From Ruminococcus sp. (lineage in GTDB: Bacteria; Bacillota; Clostridia; Oscillospirales; Acutalibacteraceae), in contig JAFQRC010000005.1 in assembly GCA_017410265.1 (NCBI GenBank), forward strand, positions 1 to 64,000: a DNA stretch of 64,000 nt, written 5' to 3'. Shown one piece after another: positions 18,841 to 29,957 of this stretch (position 1 is the first letter of the stretch; each line of letters starts with the position of its first letter). The position numbers and the translations under genes are program-made. The notes beneath the pieces are model-generated. The model worked only from the letters and a program-made list of their open reading frames with translations, ran no database searches and was not told the origin of the DNA.

Positions 18841-21800
18841 ATGAAAACAAATTCGAAGCGTTTTCTCAAGGGCGGCTTAGCTATCTTGCTTGCTGTTACC
18901 ATGCTGTTTGGTAGTTGCATCTCGGGCATCGCCGCTGTTGTCGACAACGCTGAAACAAAAGCAAATGTTGATATTGCGGAAACTAGCGATAAAGCATTTG
19001 TTGCCGGTGAGTATCTTTATTTCAAGAACTCATATGTTTATGGTTGGAATAATACATTGTGGGTTGTAAGTGGTATGTACTTATGGGCTCATTTGTGGAA
19101 CGATAGTTCATCAACTGATATTAGAATGGACCTATATTCGGGTACCGCTAATACTGAAGGTGCTATCTACCGCTGTAAAATTCCATCAGCTGTTACATAT
19201 AACTATGTAATATTCTCTCGTTCGACATCTAGTTCTTCTAATAACTGGTCTTGGGGTCAGTCATATAATGTCCCTTTGGATTCAGCAAAAAACACATATT
19301 ACAACACATATGGTAATGGTAATGGTAGTGAGACTGGTACGACTTATACAGCTTCTACTCCTGCTACATGCACAGCTACTGTAACTAACGCTATCAGTGG
19401 TAGTGGTACATCATCTGATCCATATCTTGTATATGCTGGCGATAGCTTTACAGTACAGGTTAAGGCTACAAAAGATGATATGGGTAATGAAGGTTTTGGT
19501 TACAACATCAACTCTTCATCTTCTAAAGCTGCTAATAACACTACAGGCACATGGACTAAGGCGTATACAGCATCTACTACCGTTGGAAGCACATCTACCT
19601 ATACTGGTTATGCTTGGTGTTATGAGAATTCTACATCTTATTATTCAACTAACTATAAAGCTTCAAGTGCAATCTATGTAAGGACTGTTCCTAAAGGCTA
19701 CAGCTACACAGTAACAGCAGGCACTGGCGGTACAGTATCTCCTACAAGTGGTACTGCTACATCTGCTACTATCACAGCTACACCTGATACAGGTTACGAG
19801 TTTGCAGGTTGGCAAACAACTAACGGTACTGTTGATAACGAATCTTCTGCTTCTACAACATTTACACCATCTGCAAATGGTGCGAATGCTCACGCTACAT
19901 TTACTAAGAAAACTTACACAGTTAAGTTTACTGATATCAACGGCAACCAGATCGGTTCTACTCAGACAGTAGAACATGGCGCTACTCCAACTGCACCAAC
20001 CGCTCCTACAATCACAGGTAAGACTTTCACTGGTTGGAATCCGACAGTTGGTGCTGTAACTGATGATACAACTTATCAGGCTACTTACACAGACAACACT
20101 TACTCTATCACAGTCAATCAGACTGGCGGTACAGGTACAGTAACTTTAGGCAAAACTTCTGCTAAGTACGGCGACACAGTTACCATTTCTGTAACTCCGC
20201 CTACTAACTACAAGATTTCTTCTATCACAGGTGGCGGTCTGAATGTTGGTGAGTGCGAGTCATACAATGGCTCATTCACAATGCCTGCTTCTAATGTAAC
20301 TATCACAGTTAACTATGTTCTCGCAGGTACATGTGCACCTCACTTCGCTTATGGTGATCAGGAACTCGTTTTAGGCGCTACAGTTACAAACACAGCTTCT
20401 ACTAACGAGTACTGTGATGATGCCCCAAACAGCACATTTACTTATGTGTCATCTGACACAACAGTTGCTACAGTTAACGCTTCAACAGGTTTAGTAACAG
20501 CTAAAAAGCCTGGTACTACAACTATCACAGCTACTTGCGATTGCGGTACAACTGCTACATACACAGTTACTGTTAAATCTCCATCTGTTTCTGTTCCTGC
20601 ATTAACAGTTGCAGTTAACGGTACTGCTACAGCACAGCCTGCTATCACAGACGGCCCTTCAAGCGGCTATACTATTACATATAGTGATAGTTCAGATTAC
20701 TTCAATGTAACTGCTAATGGTACAGTTACTGCTGTTAAACCTGGCACAGGCACAGTGAACTTCACTATGACATACGGCGGTAACACTGTTGCTACTGGTT
20801 CATTCTCTGTTACAGTAAGTGAGCCTACATTCTCAATTCTTCCGCATACTGACAACCTTATCGTTGGTCAGACAATGACAGCGGATTTTGAAACAACTTC
20901 AACACCTGCTGCTCAGTCAGTAACTCTTACATCAGCTGATACAAGCAAGGTTACTATTTCAGGTAACAAGGCTACAGCTGTTGCTGCTGCTCCAGAGGGT
21001 GTTACTATCACTGCTGCTTTCAAGTACAACAACAACTACACAGCTTACGCTACAGCTAAAGTTATAGTTGCTGCTCCTGAGATTACAGCTGACCCAACAT
21101 CGGTAGCTCTTGAGCTCGGCGATGGTAGTACAAATACTTCAAATACTGTAACTCTTGATACAAACGCTGCTGCAGGAAACGGCACAGGCGACGATATCAC
21201 AGTAACAACTGCTAATACTAACGTTGCTACTGCTACATTAAGTGGTAATACTCTTACTATCACAGCTACAGGTCTCGGTTCAACAACAGTCACAGCTAAG
21301 TTCCACGACGCTGAGGTTGAAATCCCTGTTACAGTAACTAAGTACGACCCTTATGTGTATCTCTATGTAACCGACTCACAGGGTTGGGACAATATGTTCC
21401 TCCACTCCTGGAAGGGTTCAAACAGTAATGTTACTACTCTTGGAGAGTCTAACGCACAGATGATTTACATCGGTCGTAACGGCGATAATGCTAAGGTTTT
21501 TGCTTACAGATTCTTAAAGGGCACAGAGCCTGAAAAGGTCATCATGGTTAAGCAGAACTCATGGCCATCCGATAACTTAATTAGAACAGACGACTACGCT
21601 GTTGATTTCAGCAAGGGTTATGCAGCTCTGTATATCGATTCATCTACAAACAGCTCAGGCAGACGTAACACTGGCGACTGGACTGATGATTGCATGATCG
21701 TTCGTCCTACAGTTTCTGTCGCTGACGTAGTAGTTCCTGTTGCTCAAACAGCTACAGCTACTGCTACTGTAGAAAACGGCGGTGTTCTTTACTGGACAAC

Positions 21801-24800
21801 TGCTGACACAACTAAAGCTACTGTTGCTGATGTTACAACAGCTACTGCAACTGTAACTGGTGTAGCTGTCGGTGATACAACAATCAGCGCTCGTGCATTT
21901 ATCGACACTGCTAACTCTTCTATCAAGACACTTCCAAACAACTATAAGACAGATTCAACATCTTGGCCATTCATCTCTAATGAAGCTACAGCTACTGTAA
22001 CAGTTGGTTCTGTTGACTACACAGTTAATGTAAACGCACAGTACTCAAACGATGGTACAAACTACGTTGACGGTACAACAGGCGGTACAGTAAGAGCTAC
22101 TAAATCTGCGGCTGAAGGCTACGGTGAACTCACTCTCCCTGCACAGATAAGCCATGGTAAGACTATCGAAGTTGGCGCAACTGCTAAGAGCGGATACCGC
22201 TTTGTTGGTTGGTATAAGAACAACAACTTCACTACTTCCGTAGGCACATCAACTGGTCTTGCTACTTCAGCTATCACAGCTGATACAACATACACAGCTC
22301 GTTTTGTAAAGACTCATCAGGTTACTGTTAACTTTACAGACGGTATCGAATCCATTAAGTTCAACAATGTGAACTATACTGATAGCTTTGACAACATCAC
22401 AGTTGATGCAGGCGCAGACATTACAGTTTACGCTACACCGGCACCTGGATATAAGTTCGCAGACTGGACAGTACAGGGTGCAACAGTTGCTGATAACACA
22501 GCTGTTAACCTGACTGTATCTAACATTCAGTCAAGCGTTACTCTCACAGCTAACGCTGTTCCTGTATATACAGCTTCTGCTACTGCTACTACAAGATACA
22601 CTAGCACAGGCGGCAGTGTCACTGTTAACGGTCAGAATTCTCCGATTCAGGTGATTAACGGCGAGACAGTAACATTCGTGGCTAATCCTTCAACTACATT
22701 TAAATTTGTGGGTTGGTTCAGTGATGCAGAATTCACAAATCTTGTATCTACTAATACTACATACAAAGAAGAGATGACAGCAAGCGGTATCAACCTCTAC
22801 GCTCTGTTCGTTAAGGATATGGTGCTTTATGATACTGATACAAGCACTAAGTATGACCTTTATTACGACTATAAGACAGATACATATTCTTTAACTACTG
22901 CAGATCTCGGCTACAACTTCAAGGTTTCTGAAAACTATTACGGTAACAACGCAATCAATGCTACAGATGTAAATGTAATAGGCGGTACACACACAGGTGC
23001 TACTGTTACAGGTACTAAAGACAAATACACAATCGTACCTGACCTTGAAAACTACGACCCAACAAAGGGAGTAAACTACAAGCTCGTTGCTGATGGTGAT
23101 GGCACATACACAATGAACATCACTCTTGAGGAAGCTGACAAGGTTGATATCAGTGTGAACGGTACTAAGGTAGCTGAGAAGGCTGTTGGTACAACATTCA
23201 ACTACACAATTACACCACCAGATGGTCAGTACCTCTTAAATGTTACTACAACACCTGATGTTAATGCATCAATTACAGATAATACTGTAACATTCACAGT
23301 TCCTGAAACTAACGTAAACATCGTTCCTACATTTGCTAACTATTCATACGTTGAGTTCTCTAACGAAACAACAGGTCTTAATATCACAGGTCTTAAGAAT
23401 GGTTACAAGGCTGGTGAAGCAGTTACAATCACAGTAACTCCTACATCTGAACAGGTTACTATTTCAGAAATCGTTGCTGATAACGATGCTGCTGTTATCA
23501 CACAGAACGGTGACAACTGGACAGTAACAATCGCTTCAATGCCTGCTGATACAACAATCACACTTACAACAACAGTTGATGCTAAGTTTAAGATGGACTA
23601 CGAAATGGTTGCTATCGGTAACTATGGTTCAGGTTATACAACATACGGTACAGTCGCTCTGAATATCAACGGCACAGCTCTTGCTAAGGGTGGTTATGTT
23701 GATAAGACAGATACTGTTACATATACTGCTACAGCTGAGGATAACTTCATCTTCGATGGTTGGTATTCAGATGCAAGTTGTTCACAAGGTAGCCTCCTTA
23801 CAAGAAATACTTCTTACGATGTAACTCCTACTAAGGATACTACCCTCTATGCTCTCTTTGTTCCTAAGCATTATATCGCTGAAGATCAGGCTAATGTTTC
23901 TAGTCACCAAGAGATGACATACGACCCTGAAACTCGTTCATTCAAATATTCAACTTCTACTATTGCTAAGGACGCTTGGTTCAGAGTTTCTAATAACCCT
24001 ACTACAAGTTATTGGACTGACTCGAGCAGCTACTGTATTTTCGATTCAAGCTTTAACGTAACATTCAACGCTAATGCATATATGGTTACAGTTGGTTGGG
24101 GTACACAGTGTTACGCACTTACTTCCGACTCATCTGCTGAGCATCCATACGAGATTATCGTAGCTCTCAACGGCAACTCATCAATCGATGTTTCTTGTAA
24201 AGCTGCTGTTGATGGTATCGGTTCAGTATTCCTCTCATCAGGTCGTGGCGATATCGTAGAAGCTACTTCAATATTTACTACTGAGGGTATTACAGCTGTT
24301 GACAAGAACGCTCACCAAGACGGCACTGATGTGAGCATTCACGAATCTTATAAGGTTGCTAACTTGCAAGAACCACAGACAGTTTCTTTTGAAACTGAAC
24401 TTACTGGTGAGAATGCCGGCAACTATTATATTGATAGATATGTTGTTTACCATGTCAATACAGAAACATATACACTTATCACACCTAATACACTTGGTAA
24501 CAATAAGTATTCCGGTACTGTTTATGTAGATGGTCCATGTTACATTGTACCTATCTACCACCTTACACCGGAATACACAGCAGCTAACGGCTTAGTTGAA
24601 ATCGATATCTATTTCGACGCTACTGCTATTATGGATAAGAACTGGGGTCCATTCGTAGCATGCTACGCTTGGGGTTCAAATAATACAAATTACGCTGGTG
24701 GTTGGTCAGGTCAGCTGATGATTCCTACTGAAGACGGTTCATCATTCTATGCTATGATTGCTGTTCCTGACGGTGTAACTAACACATCATCAGTACCTAA

Positions 24801-27261
24801 CGGTGTTACATTCAACAACTACATGCAGGCAACCGTTCCTGGTCATAACGCTGGCGCATTCGGTATCTCTGCTACACAGTATCAGTGTTACGACTACCGT
24901 GAACCTATTACTCTTTACGAAGAGGGTTACGACGTTATTACCTTCGTAGCTAAAGAGTCAACCGACGGATACCACGGTGACAGAGCTAACGGTGTTACTG
25001 TAAACACAGTTACCACTGGTACAACTGATATTTTCAATAAGTATGATTTCGATTATCTTTACAACCGTAACGGCGATGTTCCTATGGACTTAAACGGTGA
25101 TGATATCGAAAATCCTGTTGATATCAGTGAAGCAAGAGCTGATTACTATATCATCGCAAAGGGTGATATCACTTACGATCCAAACGGCACTAAATATGTT
25201 GCTGATAATCAATTCGATGCTGACTGGGCAGTTGATTGGTATGTATTTGATAGTAACGGCACATATATAACACATATCCTTTCTGACGCAATGTATAATA
25301 AATACGCAGATGACGGAACAACATATCTAGAGAACGCTCTTGGCTTAACCGCTGCACAGGCTGCAGGAAAGACAATTGCTATCTCTTATGACCACGAGAA
25401 CAACGCTGGTCACCAGATTTCATACGACGGTCAGTGGTACGGTAACATGCTTGATGATACAATTATAGCTTCAGCTGTTGTTGGAATTATTGACGAAAAC
25501 GGTGAAATCACTATTGATAATGTTGATCCTAATAACGAAGCTGATTATGGTGAAGGCTGGATCGTAGCTAATGAAGAACTCGATGGTATCATAGTCGGAG
25601 ATAAGTACGCACGTCTTCCTATCACTCTTGATTATGGTGCAGTTGACCTTTCAGCTACTGTAAAAGACGGTTACCGCTTTGTCGGTTGGTATACATATAG
25701 TAATAATAAGTATTCTAAGATTACCGCTGCTGCTGATTACAACACATACATCAGTAATGATACAACCTACTACGCTATCTTCAAAGAAATTGGTGACGAT
25801 GAAGTAATTATCAACCACCTTGTTTACAACAACCCTGATGATCCTTTCATTCCTTCCCACGGCGGTGTATCCGAAATGCTGGTTGAAGTATATGACTCTC
25901 AGGGCAACCTTGTGAACACCGGTTCAACTCCAAGCACTTCTATTTCTACAGCTGCATTTGTACCTGACGATAATGAAGAATACAAAATCATAATTAAGAC
26001 AACACCTCTTATGAACGGTACATTCTTCGCTTGGTATACTGATTCTGATACAGTTGATGGTACTAAGACATACGAAGAAATCCTTGTTGATGATACTATG
26101 ATTGGTTCTGAAACTATGGTACAGTCAGAGTTTACATATGTTTACGATGTACTGGATCCTGTCAAGGTTATCAACATCTACTCAGATGTAACTCGTGTTT
26201 CCAATTATGCTAACATTTTCTACAAATACCTCAACCGTTTTGGTGAATGGCGTACAATCACTGTAAGAGATGTTCCACTTACAGATGATGAATGTATGGG
26301 CTACGCTGGTAACGGCTATATACCTTATGTTCCAACATACATAACTCAAACAATTGAAGTAGATGGTGCTACTAAGTCCTACAACTCTGTTCAGGAGCAT
26401 GCTCCAAATGCTGAAGTAACTGAAGTGTTTGATGGCGTGGTTGTATGGAGAGTTGAAGAGCAATACTTGACACCTACTGCATCAAATGTTACGGTTGTAG
26501 CATATCAGGATACACCTAATTATACCCTTACTTATGAACTCGCTGACGGAACCATTGATTCCGTGACCGGTAAGTACAATACATTAGCTGAGATTTCTGC
26601 TCCAGCTAAGGATGGTAACGGAAATAAATTCTCTTACTGGATAGACACTGAGTCTAAGGATATCATTTCATACAAGACTAACTACAATTACAGACTTGTA
26701 AATGACAGAAGCATCAAGGCTGTTTATGGTGACGACACTGCACCTGAGTGGTCTCTTATCATTGAGAATGTAGAAATAACTCGTGAGTATCAGGATAAAT
26801 CTGACTATGTCTACACTGACTACTTGATTGCATATCATAGTAAGCAGAATATCAGACTCGATGAAGATCCTGCTGACATCAGATATGGTTTGATAGTTCT
26901 TCGTGATAATAATTATGTAGATGCTTCATACCCATCACAAAATTATGCTGATCAGGCTTTACTTGAGAGCAGAGTTAAGAAGGTTGCTGAAAAAGCTACT
27001 AACATGAGAGATTCTGCTAACAACACTCTGTTCTATCACTACGATCTGACTGATAAGAACATCACTAACTTCAACCGTATTAACTACTATCTGCAGTATG
27101 ATAATAACTTCACAGAAGAAGTTAATGGTAAAACAGTTTACTTAAGAGATTATTCATACTCAGCTTATGCTTATTTGGTTGACGCAGATGGTGAAATATT
27201 CATTAGTAAAGTTTCTGATGTTAACTTCTATGACGAAGCTACAGCTAGTGTTAATCAGTGA
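18841..27261 (+). CDS. Giant secreted multidomain surface protein (Big-like and InlB-like repeats)
   Basis: A 2806-residue protein with a signal peptide (residues 1-33, hydrophobic LAILLAVTMLFGSCISGIAA). Residues about 55-150 and 836-950 look like beta-sandwich, possibly starch-binding, modules (YLYFKNSYVYGWNN; VYLYVTDSQGWDNMFLHSWK). Big_2-like domains lie near 496-575 and 957-1030. InlB B-like repeats with GYxFxGW cores recur: GYEFAGW, GYRFVGWYKNNNF, FKFVGWFSDAEF, FIFDGWYSDASC, GYRFVGWYTYSNN. Residues about 2081-2092 read DLNGDDIENPVD, like one dockerin Ca-binding loop. There is no full dockerin, LPxTG or C-terminal membrane helix, so its attachment is unknown. It is very rich in Thr, Ala, Val and Asn. 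The start follows AAGGAGG at 18825. Adhesion or substrate binding is inferred. A 50-residue peptide gene follows 15 bases later. Confidence 0.85.
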   Translation: MKTNSKRFLKGGLAILLAVTMLFGSCISGIAAVVDNAETKANVDIAETSDKAFVAGEYLYFKNSYVYGWNNTLWVVSGMYLWAHLWNDSSSTDIRMDLYSGTANTEGAIYRCKIPSAVTYNYVIFSRSTSSSSNNWSWGQSYNVPLDSAKNTYYNTYGNGNGSETGTTYTASTPATCTATVTNAISGSGTSSDPYLVYAGDSFTVQVKATKDDMGNEGFGYNINSSSSKAANNTTGTWTKAYTASTTVGSTSTYTGYAWCYENSTSYYSTNYKASSAIYVRTVPKGYSYTVTAGTGGTVSPTSGTATSATITATPDTGYEFAGWQTTNGTVDNESSASTTFTPSANGANAHATFTKKTYTVKFTDINGNQIGSTQTVEHGATPTAPTAPTITGKTFTGWNPTVGAVTDDTTYQATYTDNTYSITVNQTGGTGTVTLGKTSAKYGDTVTISVTPPTNYKISSITGGGLNVGECESYNGSFTMPASNVTITVNYVLAGTCAPHFAYGDQELVLGATVTNTASTNEYCDDAPNSTFTYVSSDTTVATVNASTGLVTAKKPGTTTITATCDCGTTATYTVTVKSPSVSVPALTVAVNGTATAQPAITDGPSSGYTITYSDSSDYFNVTANGTVTAVKPGTGTVNFTMTYGGNTVATGSFSVTVSEPTFSILPHTDNLIVGQTMTADFETTSTPAAQSVTLTSADTSKVTISGNKATAVAAAPEGVTITAAFKYNNNYTAYATAKVIVAAPEITADPTSVALELGDGSTNTSNTVTLDTNAAAGNGTGDDITVTTANTNVATATLSGNTLTITATGLGSTTVTAKFHDAEVEIPVTVTKYDPYVYLYVTDSQGWDNMFLHSWKGSNSNVTTLGESNAQMIYIGRNGDNAKVFAYRFLKGTEPEKVIMVKQNSWPSDNLIRTDDYAVDFSKGYAALYIDSSTNSSGRRNTGDWTDDCMIVRPTVSVADVVVPVAQTATATATVENGGVLYWTTADTTKATVADVTTATATVTGVAVGDTTISARAFIDTANSSIKTLPNNYKTDSTSWPFISNEATATVTVGSVDYTVNVNAQYSNDGTNYVDGTTGGTVRATKSAAEGYGELTLPAQISHGKTIEVGATAKSGYRFVGWYKNNNFTTSVGTSTGLATSAITADTTYTARFVKTHQVTVNFTDGIESIKFNNVNYTDSFDNITVDAGADITVYATPAPGYKFADWTVQGATVADNTAVNLTVSNIQSSVTLTANAVPVYTASATATTRYTSTGGSVTVNGQNSPIQVINGETVTFVANPSTTFKFVGWFSDAEFTNLVSTNTTYKEEMTASGINLYALFVKDMVLYDTDTSTKYDLYYDYKTDTYSLTTADLGYNFKVSENYYGNNAINATDVNVIGGTHTGATVTGTKDKYTIVPDLENYDPTKGVNYKLVADGDGTYTMNITLEEADKVDISVNGTKVAEKAVGTTFNYTITPPDGQYLLNVTTTPDVNASITDNTVTFTVPETNVNIVPTFANYSYVEFSNETTGLNITGLKNGYKAGEAVTITVTPTSEQVTISEIVADNDAAVITQNGDNWTVTIASMPADTTITLTTTVDAKFKMDYEMVAIGNYGSGYTTYGTVALNINGTALAKGGYVDKTDTVTYTATAEDNFIFDGWYSDASCSQGSLLTRNTSYDVTPTKDTTLYALFVPKHYIAEDQANVSSHQEMTYDPETRSFKYSTSTIAKDAWFRVSNNPTTSYWTDSSSYCIFDSSFNVTFNANAYMVTVGWGTQCYALTSDSSAEHPYEIIVALNGNSSIDVSCKAAVDGIGSVFLSSGRGDIVEATSIFTTEGITAVDKNAHQDGTDVSIHESYKVANLQEPQTVSFETELTGENAGNYYIDRYVVYHVNTETYTLITPNTLGNNKYSGTVYVDGPCYIVPIYHLTPEYTAANGLVEIDIYFDATAIMDKNWGPFVACYAWGSNNTNYAGGWSGQLMIPTEDGSSFYAMIAVPDGVTNTSSVPNGVTFNNYMQATVPGHNAGAFGISATQYQCYDYREPITLYEEGYDVITFVAKESTDGYHGDRANGVTVNTVTTGTTDIFNKYDFDYLYNRNGDVPMDLNGDDIENPVDISEARADYYIIAKGDITYDPNGTKYVADNQFDADWAVDWYVFDSNGTYITHILSDAMYNKYADDGTTYLENALGLTAAQAAGKTIAISYDHENNAGHQISYDGQWYGNMLDDTIIASAVVGIIDENGEITIDNVDPNNEADYGEGWIVANEELDGIIVGDKYARLPITLDYGAVDLSATVKDGYRFVGWYTYSNNKYSKITAAADYNTYISNDTTYYAIFKEIGDDEVIINHLVYNNPDDPFIPSHGGVSEMLVEVYDSQGNLVNTGSTPSTSISTAAFVPDDNEEYKIIIKTTPLMNGTFFAWYTDSDTVDGTKTYEEILVDDTMIGSETMVQSEFTYVYDVLDPVKVINIYSDVTRVSNYANIFYKYLNRFGEWRTITVRDVPLTDDECMGYAGNGYIPYVPTYITQTIEVDGATKSYNSVQEHAPNAEVTEVFDGVVVWRVEEQYLTPTASNVTVVAYQDTPNYTLTYELADGTIDSVTGKYNTLAEISAPAKDGNGNKFSYWIDTESKDIISYKTNYNYRLVNDRSIKAVYGDDTAPEWSLIIENVEITREYQDKSDYVYTDYLIAYHSKQNIRLDEDPADIRYGLIVLRDNNYVDASYPSQNYADQALLESRVKKVAEKATNMRDSANNTLFYHYDLTDKNITNFNRINYYLQYDNNFTEEVNGKTVYLRDYSYSAYAYLVDADGEIFISKVSDVNFYDEATASVNQ

Positions 27262-27276
27262 TAAGGAGGTAATTTT

Positions 27277-27429
27277 ATGAAAAAGTTTTATACAGAACCA
27301 GAAATTGAACTTGTTAATATTACTCTTGTCTCTGATGTGTTGACCCCTAGCTTTGAGGGCGATGTTGACCCTTCTCAGGGTACCGGTTTTAACCCAACCG
27401 AAAATGAATGGATAGAAGATTGGGACTAA
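27277..27429 (+). CDS. Small acidic peptide, possible precursor peptide
   Basis: A 50-residue protein with AAGGAGG ideally placed, 15 bases after the giant gene's stop, so it is surely co-expressed with it. It begins MKKFYTEPEIELVNITLVSD and ends in a Gly/Asp/Asn-rich acidic tail (FEGDVDPSQGTGFN, then NEWIEDWD). It has no cysteine and no hydrophobic signal. From memory, the opening pattern MKK-[FY]-xxPE is common in small gut-clostridial peptides of unknown role. A PqqD/RRE-like gene lies 1.1 kb downstream, so a modified-peptide precursor is possible. That is an inference; no modifying enzyme is visible here. Confidence 0.7.
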   Translation: MKKFYTEPEIELVNITLVSDVLTPSFEGDVDPSQGTGFNPTENEWIEDWD

Positions 27430-27448
27430 GATCAGATTTAAACAAAAA

Positions 27449-27480
27449 CATTCCCCACGGTGTTTTCACCGTGGGGAATG
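27449..27480. terminator. Perfect hairpin after the small peptide gene
   Basis: The stem CATTCCCCACGGTG with its complement around a short loop. On the plus strand no T-run follows; on the minus strand TTTTTGTTT follows. It may act as a 3' end stabiliser or partial terminator before the next gene. Confidence 0.65.
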
Positions 27481-27501
27481 CACTAACCGAAGGTGGTATT
27501 T

Positions 27502-28419
27502 ATGAAACTAATAAACAGAATTATATCTATGGTTCTTTGCATCCTGATGGTTTCTGCTATGGCTTGCCTTGTTGTTAGCGCAAAAACAATATTTCCGGTT
27601 GGTGACTGGGATTTAGAAAAGATTAATAATAATACAGAATTTGAAGTTGATGCATACAATGGCACTGCTTCAAGCGTTTCAACTCTGCATTATTTCAACG
27701 ATATTCCAATTACTTCAATCGGGACTCACGCTTTTAACGGTAATACAACTTTAACCAGTATCAAACTCAATAGTACTATTTCCTACATTCAAAACTACGC
27801 TTTTTTGAATTGTTCTAATTTGACTACGGTGAGATTTGAAGGCGAAGTAACTTTGATTGCTATGTGTGCTTTTGCTGGTTGTTCTTCTTTGTCTTCAATC
27901 AATCTCGAGGACACTTTTATTACGACAGTTTCTAATTCTTCTTTTAAAAATTGTGACGCTTTAGAAGAAATATCACTTCCTTCTACAGTTACTGTAATTG
28001 AATCAGAAGCATTTGCTTACTGCGACAGCCTTTCTAAGATTACTATCCCTGCATCTGTAACTTCTATTGATGAGAATGTTTTTAAGGATTCGAACAATGT
28101 GGTTATATACTGTTATGAGAATTCAACAGCTCACATTTATGCTGAAAATAACAGCATAGAGTATGTTTTGATTGATGAGACACCTGTTGAAACTTATATT
28201 CTGGGTGATGCAGACGGAGATGAATATGTGTCTGTACTTGATGCAACAACTATCCAGTTAGTCATAGCAAGTAAACTTGAGGACACAGATGGAAGAATTT
28301 CAATCAGAGGCGATGTTAATAGGGATGAAACTCTCTCTGTTATGGACGCTACGAATATCCAGAGATATCTTGCCGGCAATGATGTAGAGTATGATATCGA
28401 AGGCGTTTATGAATATTGA
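27502..28419 (+). CDS. Secreted leucine-rich-repeat (BspA-like) protein with dockerin
   Basis: A 305-residue protein. The ATG at 27502 has AAGGTGG upstream and begins a signal peptide (MKLINRIISMVLCILMVSAM). Residues about 55-210 are LRR_5/BspA-like repeats: SIGTHAFNGNTTLTSIKLNS, YIQNYAFLNCSNLTTVRFEG, VIESEAFAYCDSLSKITIPA. Residues about 230-298 are a dockerin (GDADGDEYVSVLDATTIQLV; GDVNRDETLSVMDATNIQRY). BspA-like repeats usually bind proteins or surfaces, so this is a non-catalytic binding component that could dock on a scaffold. It lies between the small peptide and the PqqD operon, which has its own promoter. Confidence 0.88.
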   Translation: MKLINRIISMVLCILMVSAMACLVVSAKTIFPVGDWDLEKINNNTEFEVDAYNGTASSVSTLHYFNDIPITSIGTHAFNGNTTLTSIKLNSTISYIQNYAFLNCSNLTTVRFEGEVTLIAMCAFAGCSSLSSINLEDTFITTVSNSSFKNCDALEEISLPSTVTVIESEAFAYCDSLSKITIPASVTSIDENVFKDSNNVVIYCYENSTAHIYAENNSIEYVLIDETPVETYILGDADGDEYVSVLDATTIQLVIASKLEDTDGRISIRGDVNRDETLSVMDATNIQRYLAGNDVEYDIEGVYEY

Positions 28420-28434
28420 TTAATGTAAATTTTC

Positions 28435-28466
28435 AGGGCTTCCGAGAGGGAGCCCTATAATTTTCT
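28435..28466 (+). terminator. Weak terminator after the LRR/dockerin gene
   Basis: The stem AGGGCT/AGCCCT with a 10-base loop is followed by ATAATTTTCTTC. Only six base pairs, so termination may be partial. Confidence 0.5.
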
Positions 28467-28515
28467 TCTCTGGCGTATATTAGTTTAGTTATGCTGATGT
28501 TTATACAATATTTTC

Positions 28516-28544
28516 TTGCAAACATAGCGTTGATAAGATATAAT
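28516..28544 (+). promoter_or_regulatory. Sigma-A promoter of the PqqD-S26-HprK-like operon
   Basis: TTGCAA (28516-28521) and TATAAT (28539-28544) are separated by 17 bases, 17 bases before the ATG at 28562, so the leader is very short. Confidence 0.8.
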
Positions 28545-28561
28545 TATTTACAGGTGATATT

Positions 28562-28825
28562 ATGAAAGTAAAAAAGGACTTTGTTCTCAAAGAAATTGCT
28601 GACAGCTTTCTTGTTGTGCCTTTAGGCTCACAGGTTGTGAACTTCGGCTGTATTATTAAACTTTCTGAAACTGGAGCTTTTCTCTGGAATCAGCTTGAGG
28701 AGGATAAAACCGAGAGCGAGCTTGTCAGTGCGTTGCTTAGCTTATATGATGTCGATGAATCAAAGGCGACAGCTGATGTTAGTAATTTTGTAAGAAAACT
28801 AAAGGAAGCCGACCTTCTTGAGTAA
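28562..28825 (+). CDS. PqqD-family protein (RiPP recognition element-like)
   Basis: An 87-residue protein with the PqqD pattern: MKVKKDFVLKEIADSFLVVP, the central IIKLSETGAFLWNQLEED and a C-terminal helix region ending VRKLKEADLL. PqqD-like domains bind the leader of a ribosomal peptide and present it to a modifying enzyme, often a radical SAM protein. None is visible nearby. It is first in a three-gene operon with its own promoter. Its last codons overlap the TTG start of the S26-like gene by 8 bases, showing tight coupling. Confidence 0.85.
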   Translation: MKVKKDFVLKEIADSFLVVPLGSQVVNFGCIIKLSETGAFLWNQLEEDKTESELVSALLSLYDVDESKATADVSNFVRKLKEADLLE

Positions 28826-29264
28826 TAAAATTTCAAAAGACGACTTTGTCATTCTGCTAAAAGAAACTTTTGCTTTGGGCAAGGACTTTTCTTTTAGTCC
28901 TACCGGTGATAGCATGAAGCCCATGCTCAACGGTACAACAGACACAGTCGTTCTGACTAAAAAGGGCGAGAAGCTCAAAAAATATGATGTCGCGATGTAT
29001 CACCGTCGCAGAGATAACGCGCTTGTACTTCATCGGGTTGTAAAGGTAACCGCTGAAAGTTACATCATGAGTGGTGATAACCAATACTACTTCGATTACG
29101 ATATCACACACAGTGATGTTCTAGCTGTTGTAAAGTCGTTTAACAGAAAAGGAAAAAACATTTCTGTTAGAGCTGTTTCTTATCGCATCTATATCCAGTT
29201 AATGCTTTTAAAGAAATATAGTCGCATTTTGTTTTCTAAAATATATCACAAGTTTTTTCGATGA
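28818..29264 (+). CDS. S24/S26-type peptidase, signal-peptidase-like
   Basis: A 148-residue protein, starting with TTG at 28818 inside the end of the PqqD gene, behind AAAGGAAG. It has the signal-peptidase serine box (FSPTGDSMKPML, Ser near residue 32), a second box NALVLHRVVKV where a histidine stands in place of the usual bacterial lysine, as in SipW/ER-type enzymes, and the GDN box (YIMSGDNQYYFDYD). There is no N-terminal membrane anchor, unusual for a signal peptidase. It may cut a small substrate, such as a leader peptide, inside the cell; this is inference from context. Confidence 0.8.
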   Translation: MSNKISKDDFVILLKETFALGKDFSFSPTGDSMKPMLNGTTDTVVLTKKGEKLKKYDVAMYHRRRDNALVLHRVVKVTAESYIMSGDNQYYFDYDITHSDVLAVVKSFNRKGKNISVRAVSYRIYIQLMLLKKYSRILFSKIYHKFFR

Positions 29265-29282
29265 TTCCCAAGGGGTGTTATT

Positions 29283-29957
29283 ATGGGACAGTACAGAATC
29301 GCAGAATTGAATCTGGAGATTGAAACAAATTCTAAAACACTGCAAAATAATCTGAAGGTTTATGAAACCAGTTTTGATTACATGCCGAATTTATCACTCA
29401 GTATCAGTGACGATATTTTGCTTCAACTTCTTAATGAATGTGAGGGTTATAGTGCAGATGTTGTTGAGTGCGAGTATCACTCTACTGAGTTTGCGCGGTC
29501 TATGTTTGATTACAACGGCTTTCCGATTAAAGCAACAGCTGTCGAATATGAAAACAGCGCTGTGCTTTTCTCAGCACCTTTTGAAGAAACTAGAGTTTTT
29601 GATTTCATTCCTGCTAAAAGGATTTTCGCTGTTGACTGCCCGGCTATCAGACTCATAAATTCTGTATTCTATGCATATGGCACACCGTTTGGTCAGTTTG
29701 GTGAAATGAGCAGAGATATCAAGTTGCCTGTGAAAAGCATCGTATTTGTAGATAACGAACGCTTTAATTCACTGAAAACGCTTGATACAAAAGATATGGT
29801 TTCAATGTTTATGCGAGCAGTCCATTTGAGCATGCACAGTGAGCGAATGAAGCACACGCTATATATGCTCGAAAAAGTTTCTAAATGCGTGAAATTTTAC
29901 GGAGTGAGCGATTTATCTGATGTAGATTTTATATTAGAGAGAGTAACAGAAGATTAA
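29283..29957 (+). CDS. HprK-like protein with lost P-loop (pseudokinase?)
   Basis: A 224-residue protein. Residues about 80-165 follow the layout of HPr-kinase-like proteins seen in some peptide-modification clusters: a strand before the P-loop (YENSAVLFSAPFEE), then VDCPAIRLINSVFYAYGTPF and LPVKSIVFVDN. In active members the first stretch reads like LFSGPSGTGKS; here it is LFSAPFEETRV, with no Gly-Lys-Ser/Thr, so ATP binding is unlikely. It is the last gene of the PqqD operon, 18 bases after the S26 gene, behind AAGGGGTG. A structural or peptide-binding role is possible. The family assignment is by pattern only. Confidence 0.6.
   Translation: MGQYRIAELNLEIETNSKTLQNNLKVYETSFDYMPNLSLSISDDILLQLLNECEGYSADVVECEYHSTEFARSMFDYNGFPIKATAVEYENSAVLFSAPFEETRVFDFIPAKRIFAVDCPAIRLINSVFYAYGTPFGQFGEMSRDIKLPVKSIVFVDNERFNSLKTLDTKDMVSMFMRAVHLSMHSERMKHTLYMLEKVSKCVKFYGVSDLSDVDFILERVTED

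Follow-up and report, generated by a model that had tools for sequence, protein, structure and literature searches.

The closest described system is that of the linear polyphosphorylated peptides (LPPs) (Popov et al., 2026, Nat Commun; PMC13381572). According to the main text of that report, the LPP core set consists of the RRE LppB, the SipW-like protein LppS, the HprK-like protein LppK, an MsbA-like exporter, and an NTP transferase, and a lasso cyclase is not needed. LppB binds a leader with a YxxP motif, which is essential. LppS carries the residues S29, H68, and D93, and leader removal is observed only in combination with LppB. LppK places several phosphates onto a conserved serine of the core, Ser3, which is the third residue past the cut.

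Here, we describe a locus from a Ruminococcus-type bacterium that resembles the LPP loci, as these are presented in that main text, in most of its parts. It encodes a short precursor with a YxxP leader and a conserved serine, a discrete RRE, a SipW/archaeal-type peptidase with a Ser-His-Asp triad, and an HprK-like protein. Its sister loci carry an MsbA-like exporter and an NTP transferase (PF14907), and there is no macrolactam cyclase. The differences are also substantial. The leader of the window family contains DV[LI]xxS where the LPP leader has FETxxS, the kinase is a pseudokinase, and the operon has neither an exporter nor an NTP transferase. Precursors of this type are encoded at scattered sites, in pairs with large surface proteins, and the host belongs to the Clostridia, whereas the main text of PMC13381572 analyses Bacilli. 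We do not file the locus as a strict LPP locus, because an active kinase and an exporter are missing from it. Lasso peptides of the paeninodin and pseudomycoidin type (PMC8498205) likewise have a PqqD-like B1 protein with an HprK-like kinase and a nucleotidyltransferase as accessory set. The locus differs from them in that it has no lasso cyclase and no transglutaminase-type B2 protein, and its leader has a tyrosine in place of the tryptophan typical of paeninodin.

Results

The window analysed is a stretch of 64,000 nucleotides from a 1.97-Mb draft genome in 17 contigs that is 97% complete. The named relatives of the genus are Ruminococcus-type MAGs, chiefly from the guts of ruminants and other herbivores. 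A preliminary description of the window had listed a small peptide with a strong ribosome site 15 bases past a giant gene, an LRR/dockerin gene, and genes for a PqqD-like protein, a soluble Ser/His signal-peptidase-like protein, and a dead HprK-like protein, and every one of these is found there. Its suggestion that the set might be unexplored, with no described function known for it, does not hold, since the LPP family has the same parts with functions that are demonstrated in the main text of PMC13381572. A literature search returned no paper that combines PqqD and dockerin, and none with broader terms. The leader motif, the gene order, and the neighbours all recur across dozens of species, so the arrangement lies far beyond chance. 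Genes were called with a simple script, and many of the relatives' loci are truncated at contig ends.

The gene for the precursor peptide (27277–27429, plus strand) starts 15 nucleotides past the stop codon of the giant gene and is preceded by the Shine-Dalgarno sequence AAGGAGG at 27263–27269. It encodes an acidic peptide of 50 residues without cysteine, MKKFYTEPEIELVNITLVSDVLTPSFEGDVDPSQGTGFNPTENEWIEDWD, which belongs to a family of 48 unique peptides. Conserved columns in the alignment of this family occur only within the first 25 residues, where the leader has the form MKKxYxxPxIE...DVLxxS. The tyrosine is nearly invariant, the proline is present in 35 of the 48 peptides, and the serine (Ser25 in the window peptide) is again nearly invariant. 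The C-terminal core is variable and acidic, with a median length of about 26 residues and a net charge of -6 across the family. Global pairwise alignment gives an identity of 0.61 for the leader versus 0.51 for the core, a comparison that carries little information since gaps in the short acidic cores inflate the identity, so that the column conservation is the better guide. The YxxPx[hydrophobic] motif is of the type bound by lasso-type RREs. When compared with the LPP consensus YxxPxVLxHQxIxFETxxS, YxxPx[IVLF] and the final xxS fit, but HQ and FET are replaced, and the spacing between tyrosine and serine is one to two residues longer.

Folding reveals a strong stem-loop without a T-run directly 3' of the peptide gene (27449–27480, plus strand). 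Strong stem-loops are present at the equivalent place in all 14 loci folded, with z values from -2.9 to -7.7 and with differing stem sequences. The stem-loop is possibly an element for mRNA processing or partial termination. The next gene (27502–28419, plus strand) encodes a secreted BspA-type LRR protein (LRR_5, E 4e-33) with a C-terminal type I dockerin (dockerin_1, E 1.5e-5), and it is a recurrent neighbour 3' of the peptide in many relatives.

The first gene of the peptide cassette (18841–27261, plus strand) encodes the giant, a secreted protein of 2806 residues in which Pfam identifies InlB-type repeats and Big_2 domains. In relatives, a homologous large gene stands directly 5' of the peptide. 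The neighbouring gene could be read for 66 peptides. Of these, 63 share the strand of the preceding gene, and 46 follow directly after a gene of at least 600 residues, usually at a distance of 11–30 nucleotides, against a background of 6.7%. The bodies of these large partner proteins vary between LRR, InlB, beta-helix, and Big types. Their C termini are far more uniform, as the last 260 residues of 43 of 44 partner proteins fall into four homology clusters (of 22, 14, 5, and 2 members). In the giant, the region common to other peptide-associated surface proteins comprises about 150 residues (26809–27258, plus strand), as judged by the C-terminal clusters and alignment. A model of this domain is of low confidence (pLDDT 69), and no match in the Protein Data Bank was found under E 0.001.

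In six genomes, a peptide lies directly downstream of 15 of the 17 C-terminal domains of the window type and of 23 of the 44 domains of a second type. For 3 of 20 domains examined in detail, the next gene encodes a further large surface protein instead. Up to 12 dispersed copies of the surface-protein-plus-peptide pair are present per genome in related rumen and gut bacteria, and the same arrangement occurs in a complete genome from another family of the order (L046). What constantly accompanies the peptide is the large upstream surface protein, not the downstream operon. Sortases are present, and the idea that the peptide anchors these proteins for want of sortases is therefore not forced.

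The preliminary description had suggested a search for PqqD and S26 together across gut Firmicutes, to see whether the peptide family travels with them. Among 59 related genomes, the peptide family is present in 33 of the 42 with PqqD and in none of the 17 without it (Fisher p=1e-8), absence counts that are affected by MAG incompleteness. A broader profile detects peptides in six of the nine remaining PqqD genomes at E<0.001, and also, at E 1e-5, in an 81%-complete MAG with no PqqD detected (G004). The peptide profile was built from loci near PqqD genes, and dispersed peptides were found genome-wide, irrespective of their neighbours. Some genomes contain 11–12 peptides and one or two PqqD genes, and in certain genomes the majority of the peptides have no PqqD gene anywhere near them. 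Because up to 12 peptide cassettes are dispersed over a genome, it is probable that a single RRE/peptidase set processes many precursors in trans. An operon without a peptide, or the reverse, is encountered at individual loci, as with the GroEL-linked PqqD-S26 genes described below, but not at the level of genomes. The proposed link between peptide and operon is thus sustained in one respect and altered in another: co-occurrence places both in one RiPP-like system, whereas the constant partner of the peptide lies upstream. The assignment of the operon to the recognition and cleavage parts of such a system is well supported by this co-occurrence and by the YxxP motif.

The PqqD-like protein (28562–28825, plus strand) is a discrete RRE of the LppB/lasso B1 type. 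With the PqqD of PQQ biosynthesis it has the RRE fold and a match to PF05402 (E 1.8e-17) in common, but the score with the NCBIfam PQQ_PqqD model is far under its cut-off. When a profile of window-type PqqD proteins was searched against solved structures, the matches with E<0.01 were lasso and LPP RREs only, among them the LppB structure 9x8z (E 9e-5), which rules out a PqqD of the PQQ type. The residues that line the leader pocket of LppB are kept: D70 corresponds to D72 in 21 of 22 sequences, Y60 to Y62 in 20 of 22, and F74 to F76 in 19 of 22. The position of N33 is an asparagine in most relatives and a serine in the window RRE. The residues of LppB in contact with LppS, E11 and L22, are not kept.

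The S26-like gene (28818–29264, plus strand) encodes a protein that matches the archaeal-type signal peptidase I model TIGR02228 at 5e-8, below its cut-off. Residues Ser32, His72, and Asp87 are conserved in 31 aligned sequences. There is no transmembrane-like stretch in the protein, with a maximum hydropathy over 19 residues of 0.8, in agreement with a soluble enzyme. This LppS-like protein is the probable leader peptidase. The cut may fall near D-V-L-x-x-S25, and alignment to the LPP precursors would make the serine the third core residue, an assignment that is uncertain.

The HprK-like protein (29283–29957, plus strand) takes the position of LppK. It lacks the P-loop, through a deletion of about 7 residues, as well as the histidine and the NDDKP motif. 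All three are absent in 34 of 34 members of its clade, which consists of the window protein and 33 aligned Ruminococcus-type relatives collected from a scan of 84,980 genomes, and the earlier call of a dead protein is thereby confirmed. The motifs are intact in 14 of 14 proteins of the sister group. These are mostly encoded before PqqD, and the dead form is encoded after the S26 gene. In a phylogenetic tree, the dead proteins form one clade with a support of 100/100. The clade evolves under purifying selection, with a dN/dS ratio of 0.07–0.15, based on the few pairs with unsaturated dS, as most pairs are saturated. Identity between near relatives is 66–72%, at least equal to that of the RRE and peptidase neighbours. 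The conserved clade and the low dN/dS rule out a chance or decayed HprK gene.

Neither Pfam nor a phmmer search against Protein Data Bank sequences gave a match for this protein. However, its structure model has a pLDDT of 93.6, and a structure search with the model returned PEPCK and HprK, with a Z of 12.2 and an rmsd of 3.4 over 207 residues for PEPCK (2pc9). From the model, an HprK/PEPCK-type fold is predicted with confidence. The place of the pseudokinase in the operon suggests that it is probably a scaffold or a subunit that binds and holds the substrate. Peptides from loci with a pseudokinase still have the precursor serine. On another contig, the window genome encodes a single intact HprK-like kinase (G000:C2:239525), which carries GTGKS and NDDKP motifs and is not adjacent to any PqqD gene. 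Judging by its motifs, phosphorylation of the serine in trans by this paralogue is possible.

A second locus in the same genome (L086:7373-9780, contig C8) encodes a large surface protein, a small lipoprotein-like protein, a dockerin protein, a peptide that begins with MKEIYEKLSIDIEFINKDDVITTS..., PqqD, S26, and a PF14907 NTP transferase, and no HprK. Beside it, on the minus strand (L086:9883-11352), lies a gene for a 489-residue protein with a C-terminal LuxR-type DNA-binding domain, a possible regulator. An orphan family peptide of 86 residues (L087:8166-8423; G000:C2:166165) has no PqqD nearby and is positioned tail-to-tail with genes for a 1977-residue surface protein and an LRR/dockerin protein. 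Elsewhere, PqqD and S26, often with an NTP transferase, are found right after groES-groEL (L037, L041-L044, L048, L096, and L100), and these loci have no recognisable local peptide.

In the same genus, sister loci additionally encode an ABC exporter, a PF14907 NTP transferase, and an intact HprK. The exporter is absent from the window operon, and no close orthologue was found in the genome (best identity 28%). Two ABC exporter matches on separate contigs (G000:C4:79179-82539 and G000:C12:3179-6539) agree exactly in score and spacing, which reflects either a duplicated stretch or assembly redundancy. There is no NTP transferase in the window operon; a PF14907 protein is encoded at the second locus (C8).

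Discussion

We consider the locus, with a probability of roughly three in four, to represent a Ruminococcus-type pathway that is related to, but divergent from, the LPP RiPP pathway, and in which leader removal by S26 is guided by the RRE, the pseudokinase serves as a scaffold, and precursors are processed in trans. The peptide and its large partner would be made from one transcript. The PqqD-like RRE would bind the N-terminal leader at Y5xxP8xI and present it to the S26 peptidase, a soluble enzyme with a Ser-His-Asp triad. Removal of the leader near D-V-L-x-x-S25 would release an acidic core some 25 residues long. Phosphorylation of the serine, if any, would occur in trans through the intact HprK-like paralogue on the other contig. 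At the sister loci, the adjacent ABC transporter is expected to export the core, and the window lineage has lost that exporter. In relatives, one RRE/peptidase set would serve several surface-protein-plus-peptide cassettes. Most likely, judging from the pairing in shared, repeated cassettes, the mature peptide and its partner protein act together at the cell surface. Several observations count against an LPP-like reading: the altered leader consensus and spacing, the dead kinase and the missing exporter and NTP transferase, the RRE positions N33, E11, and L22 that differ from LppB, a serine that might instead be recognised by the peptidase, the GroEL-linked loci that have no peptide of their own, and the peptides of G004.

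It is conceivable, if doubtful, that phosphorylation has no part in the pathway, which would then be reduced to recognition and leader cleavage, with the serine as the P1 residue of the S26 cut or as a recognition residue. Signal peptidases favour small residues at position -1, and the retention of the serine in peptides that are encoded beside a pseudokinase fits such a role. An intact kinase nevertheless remains in the window genome, and the equivalent serine of the LPPs is the third residue past the cut and the phosphate acceptor, according to the main text of PMC13381572.

We regard it as rather unlikely that the locus belongs to a canonical LPP pathway that relies on a kinase, an NTP transferase, and an exporter encoded at other loci and acting in trans, with the pseudokinase as a dispensable leftover. 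The same genome does encode an intact kinase (C2:239525) and an NTP transferase (C8), and the precursor serine is kept. However, the pseudokinase is retained in 34 loci at a dN/dS of 0.07–0.15 and is conserved at least as well as the RRE and the peptidase, and therefore it is no leftover.

That the peptide belongs to the giant gene only, next to an unrelated PqqD/S26 operon, is very improbable, even though most peptides in some genomes are distant from any PqqD gene. The genome-level co-occurrence (p=1e-8) and the RRE-binding motif in the peptide argue against it, as does the fact that several unrelated loci, among them the second one of the window genome, preserve the gene order. The reading as a lasso peptide cluster whose cyclase is encoded elsewhere is rejected in spite of the resemblance of the RRE profile to lasso B1 proteins and a leader motif shared with many lasso precursors, as the full-length PF00733 matches in the genome are only glutamine-type AsnB enzymes with the ordinary N-terminal cysteine (Cys2), and no PF13471 (Transglut_core3) peptidase scores over the cut-off.

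Beyond the divergent LPP-like pathway itself, we tentatively propose a companion system, in which each large secreted protein with such a C-terminal domain has its own acidic peptide, encoded by the next gene and matured by RRE-guided proteolysis, that would act on its partner extracellularly by binding, tethering, or switching it. The whole repertoire would be served by a single RRE/peptidase set, with the pseudokinase as a scaffold in the window clade. Compared with the main text of PMC13381572, whose supplementary tables may list Clostridial members, the conserved pseudokinase, the tracking of PqqD and peptide across genomes, and the pairing with surface proteins are new.

The replacement of the modifying kinase by a conserved pseudokinase amounts to a natural experiment on the role of the kinase beyond catalysis. 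The peptides constitute a repertoire in Ruminococcus-type species of the herbivore gut that would probably escape RiPP mining based on clusters, because most precursors are encoded far from the enzymes. LPP-like precursors are paired with large surface proteins over and over within a genome, and this pairing is a concrete and directly testable hint at the targets of LPPs.
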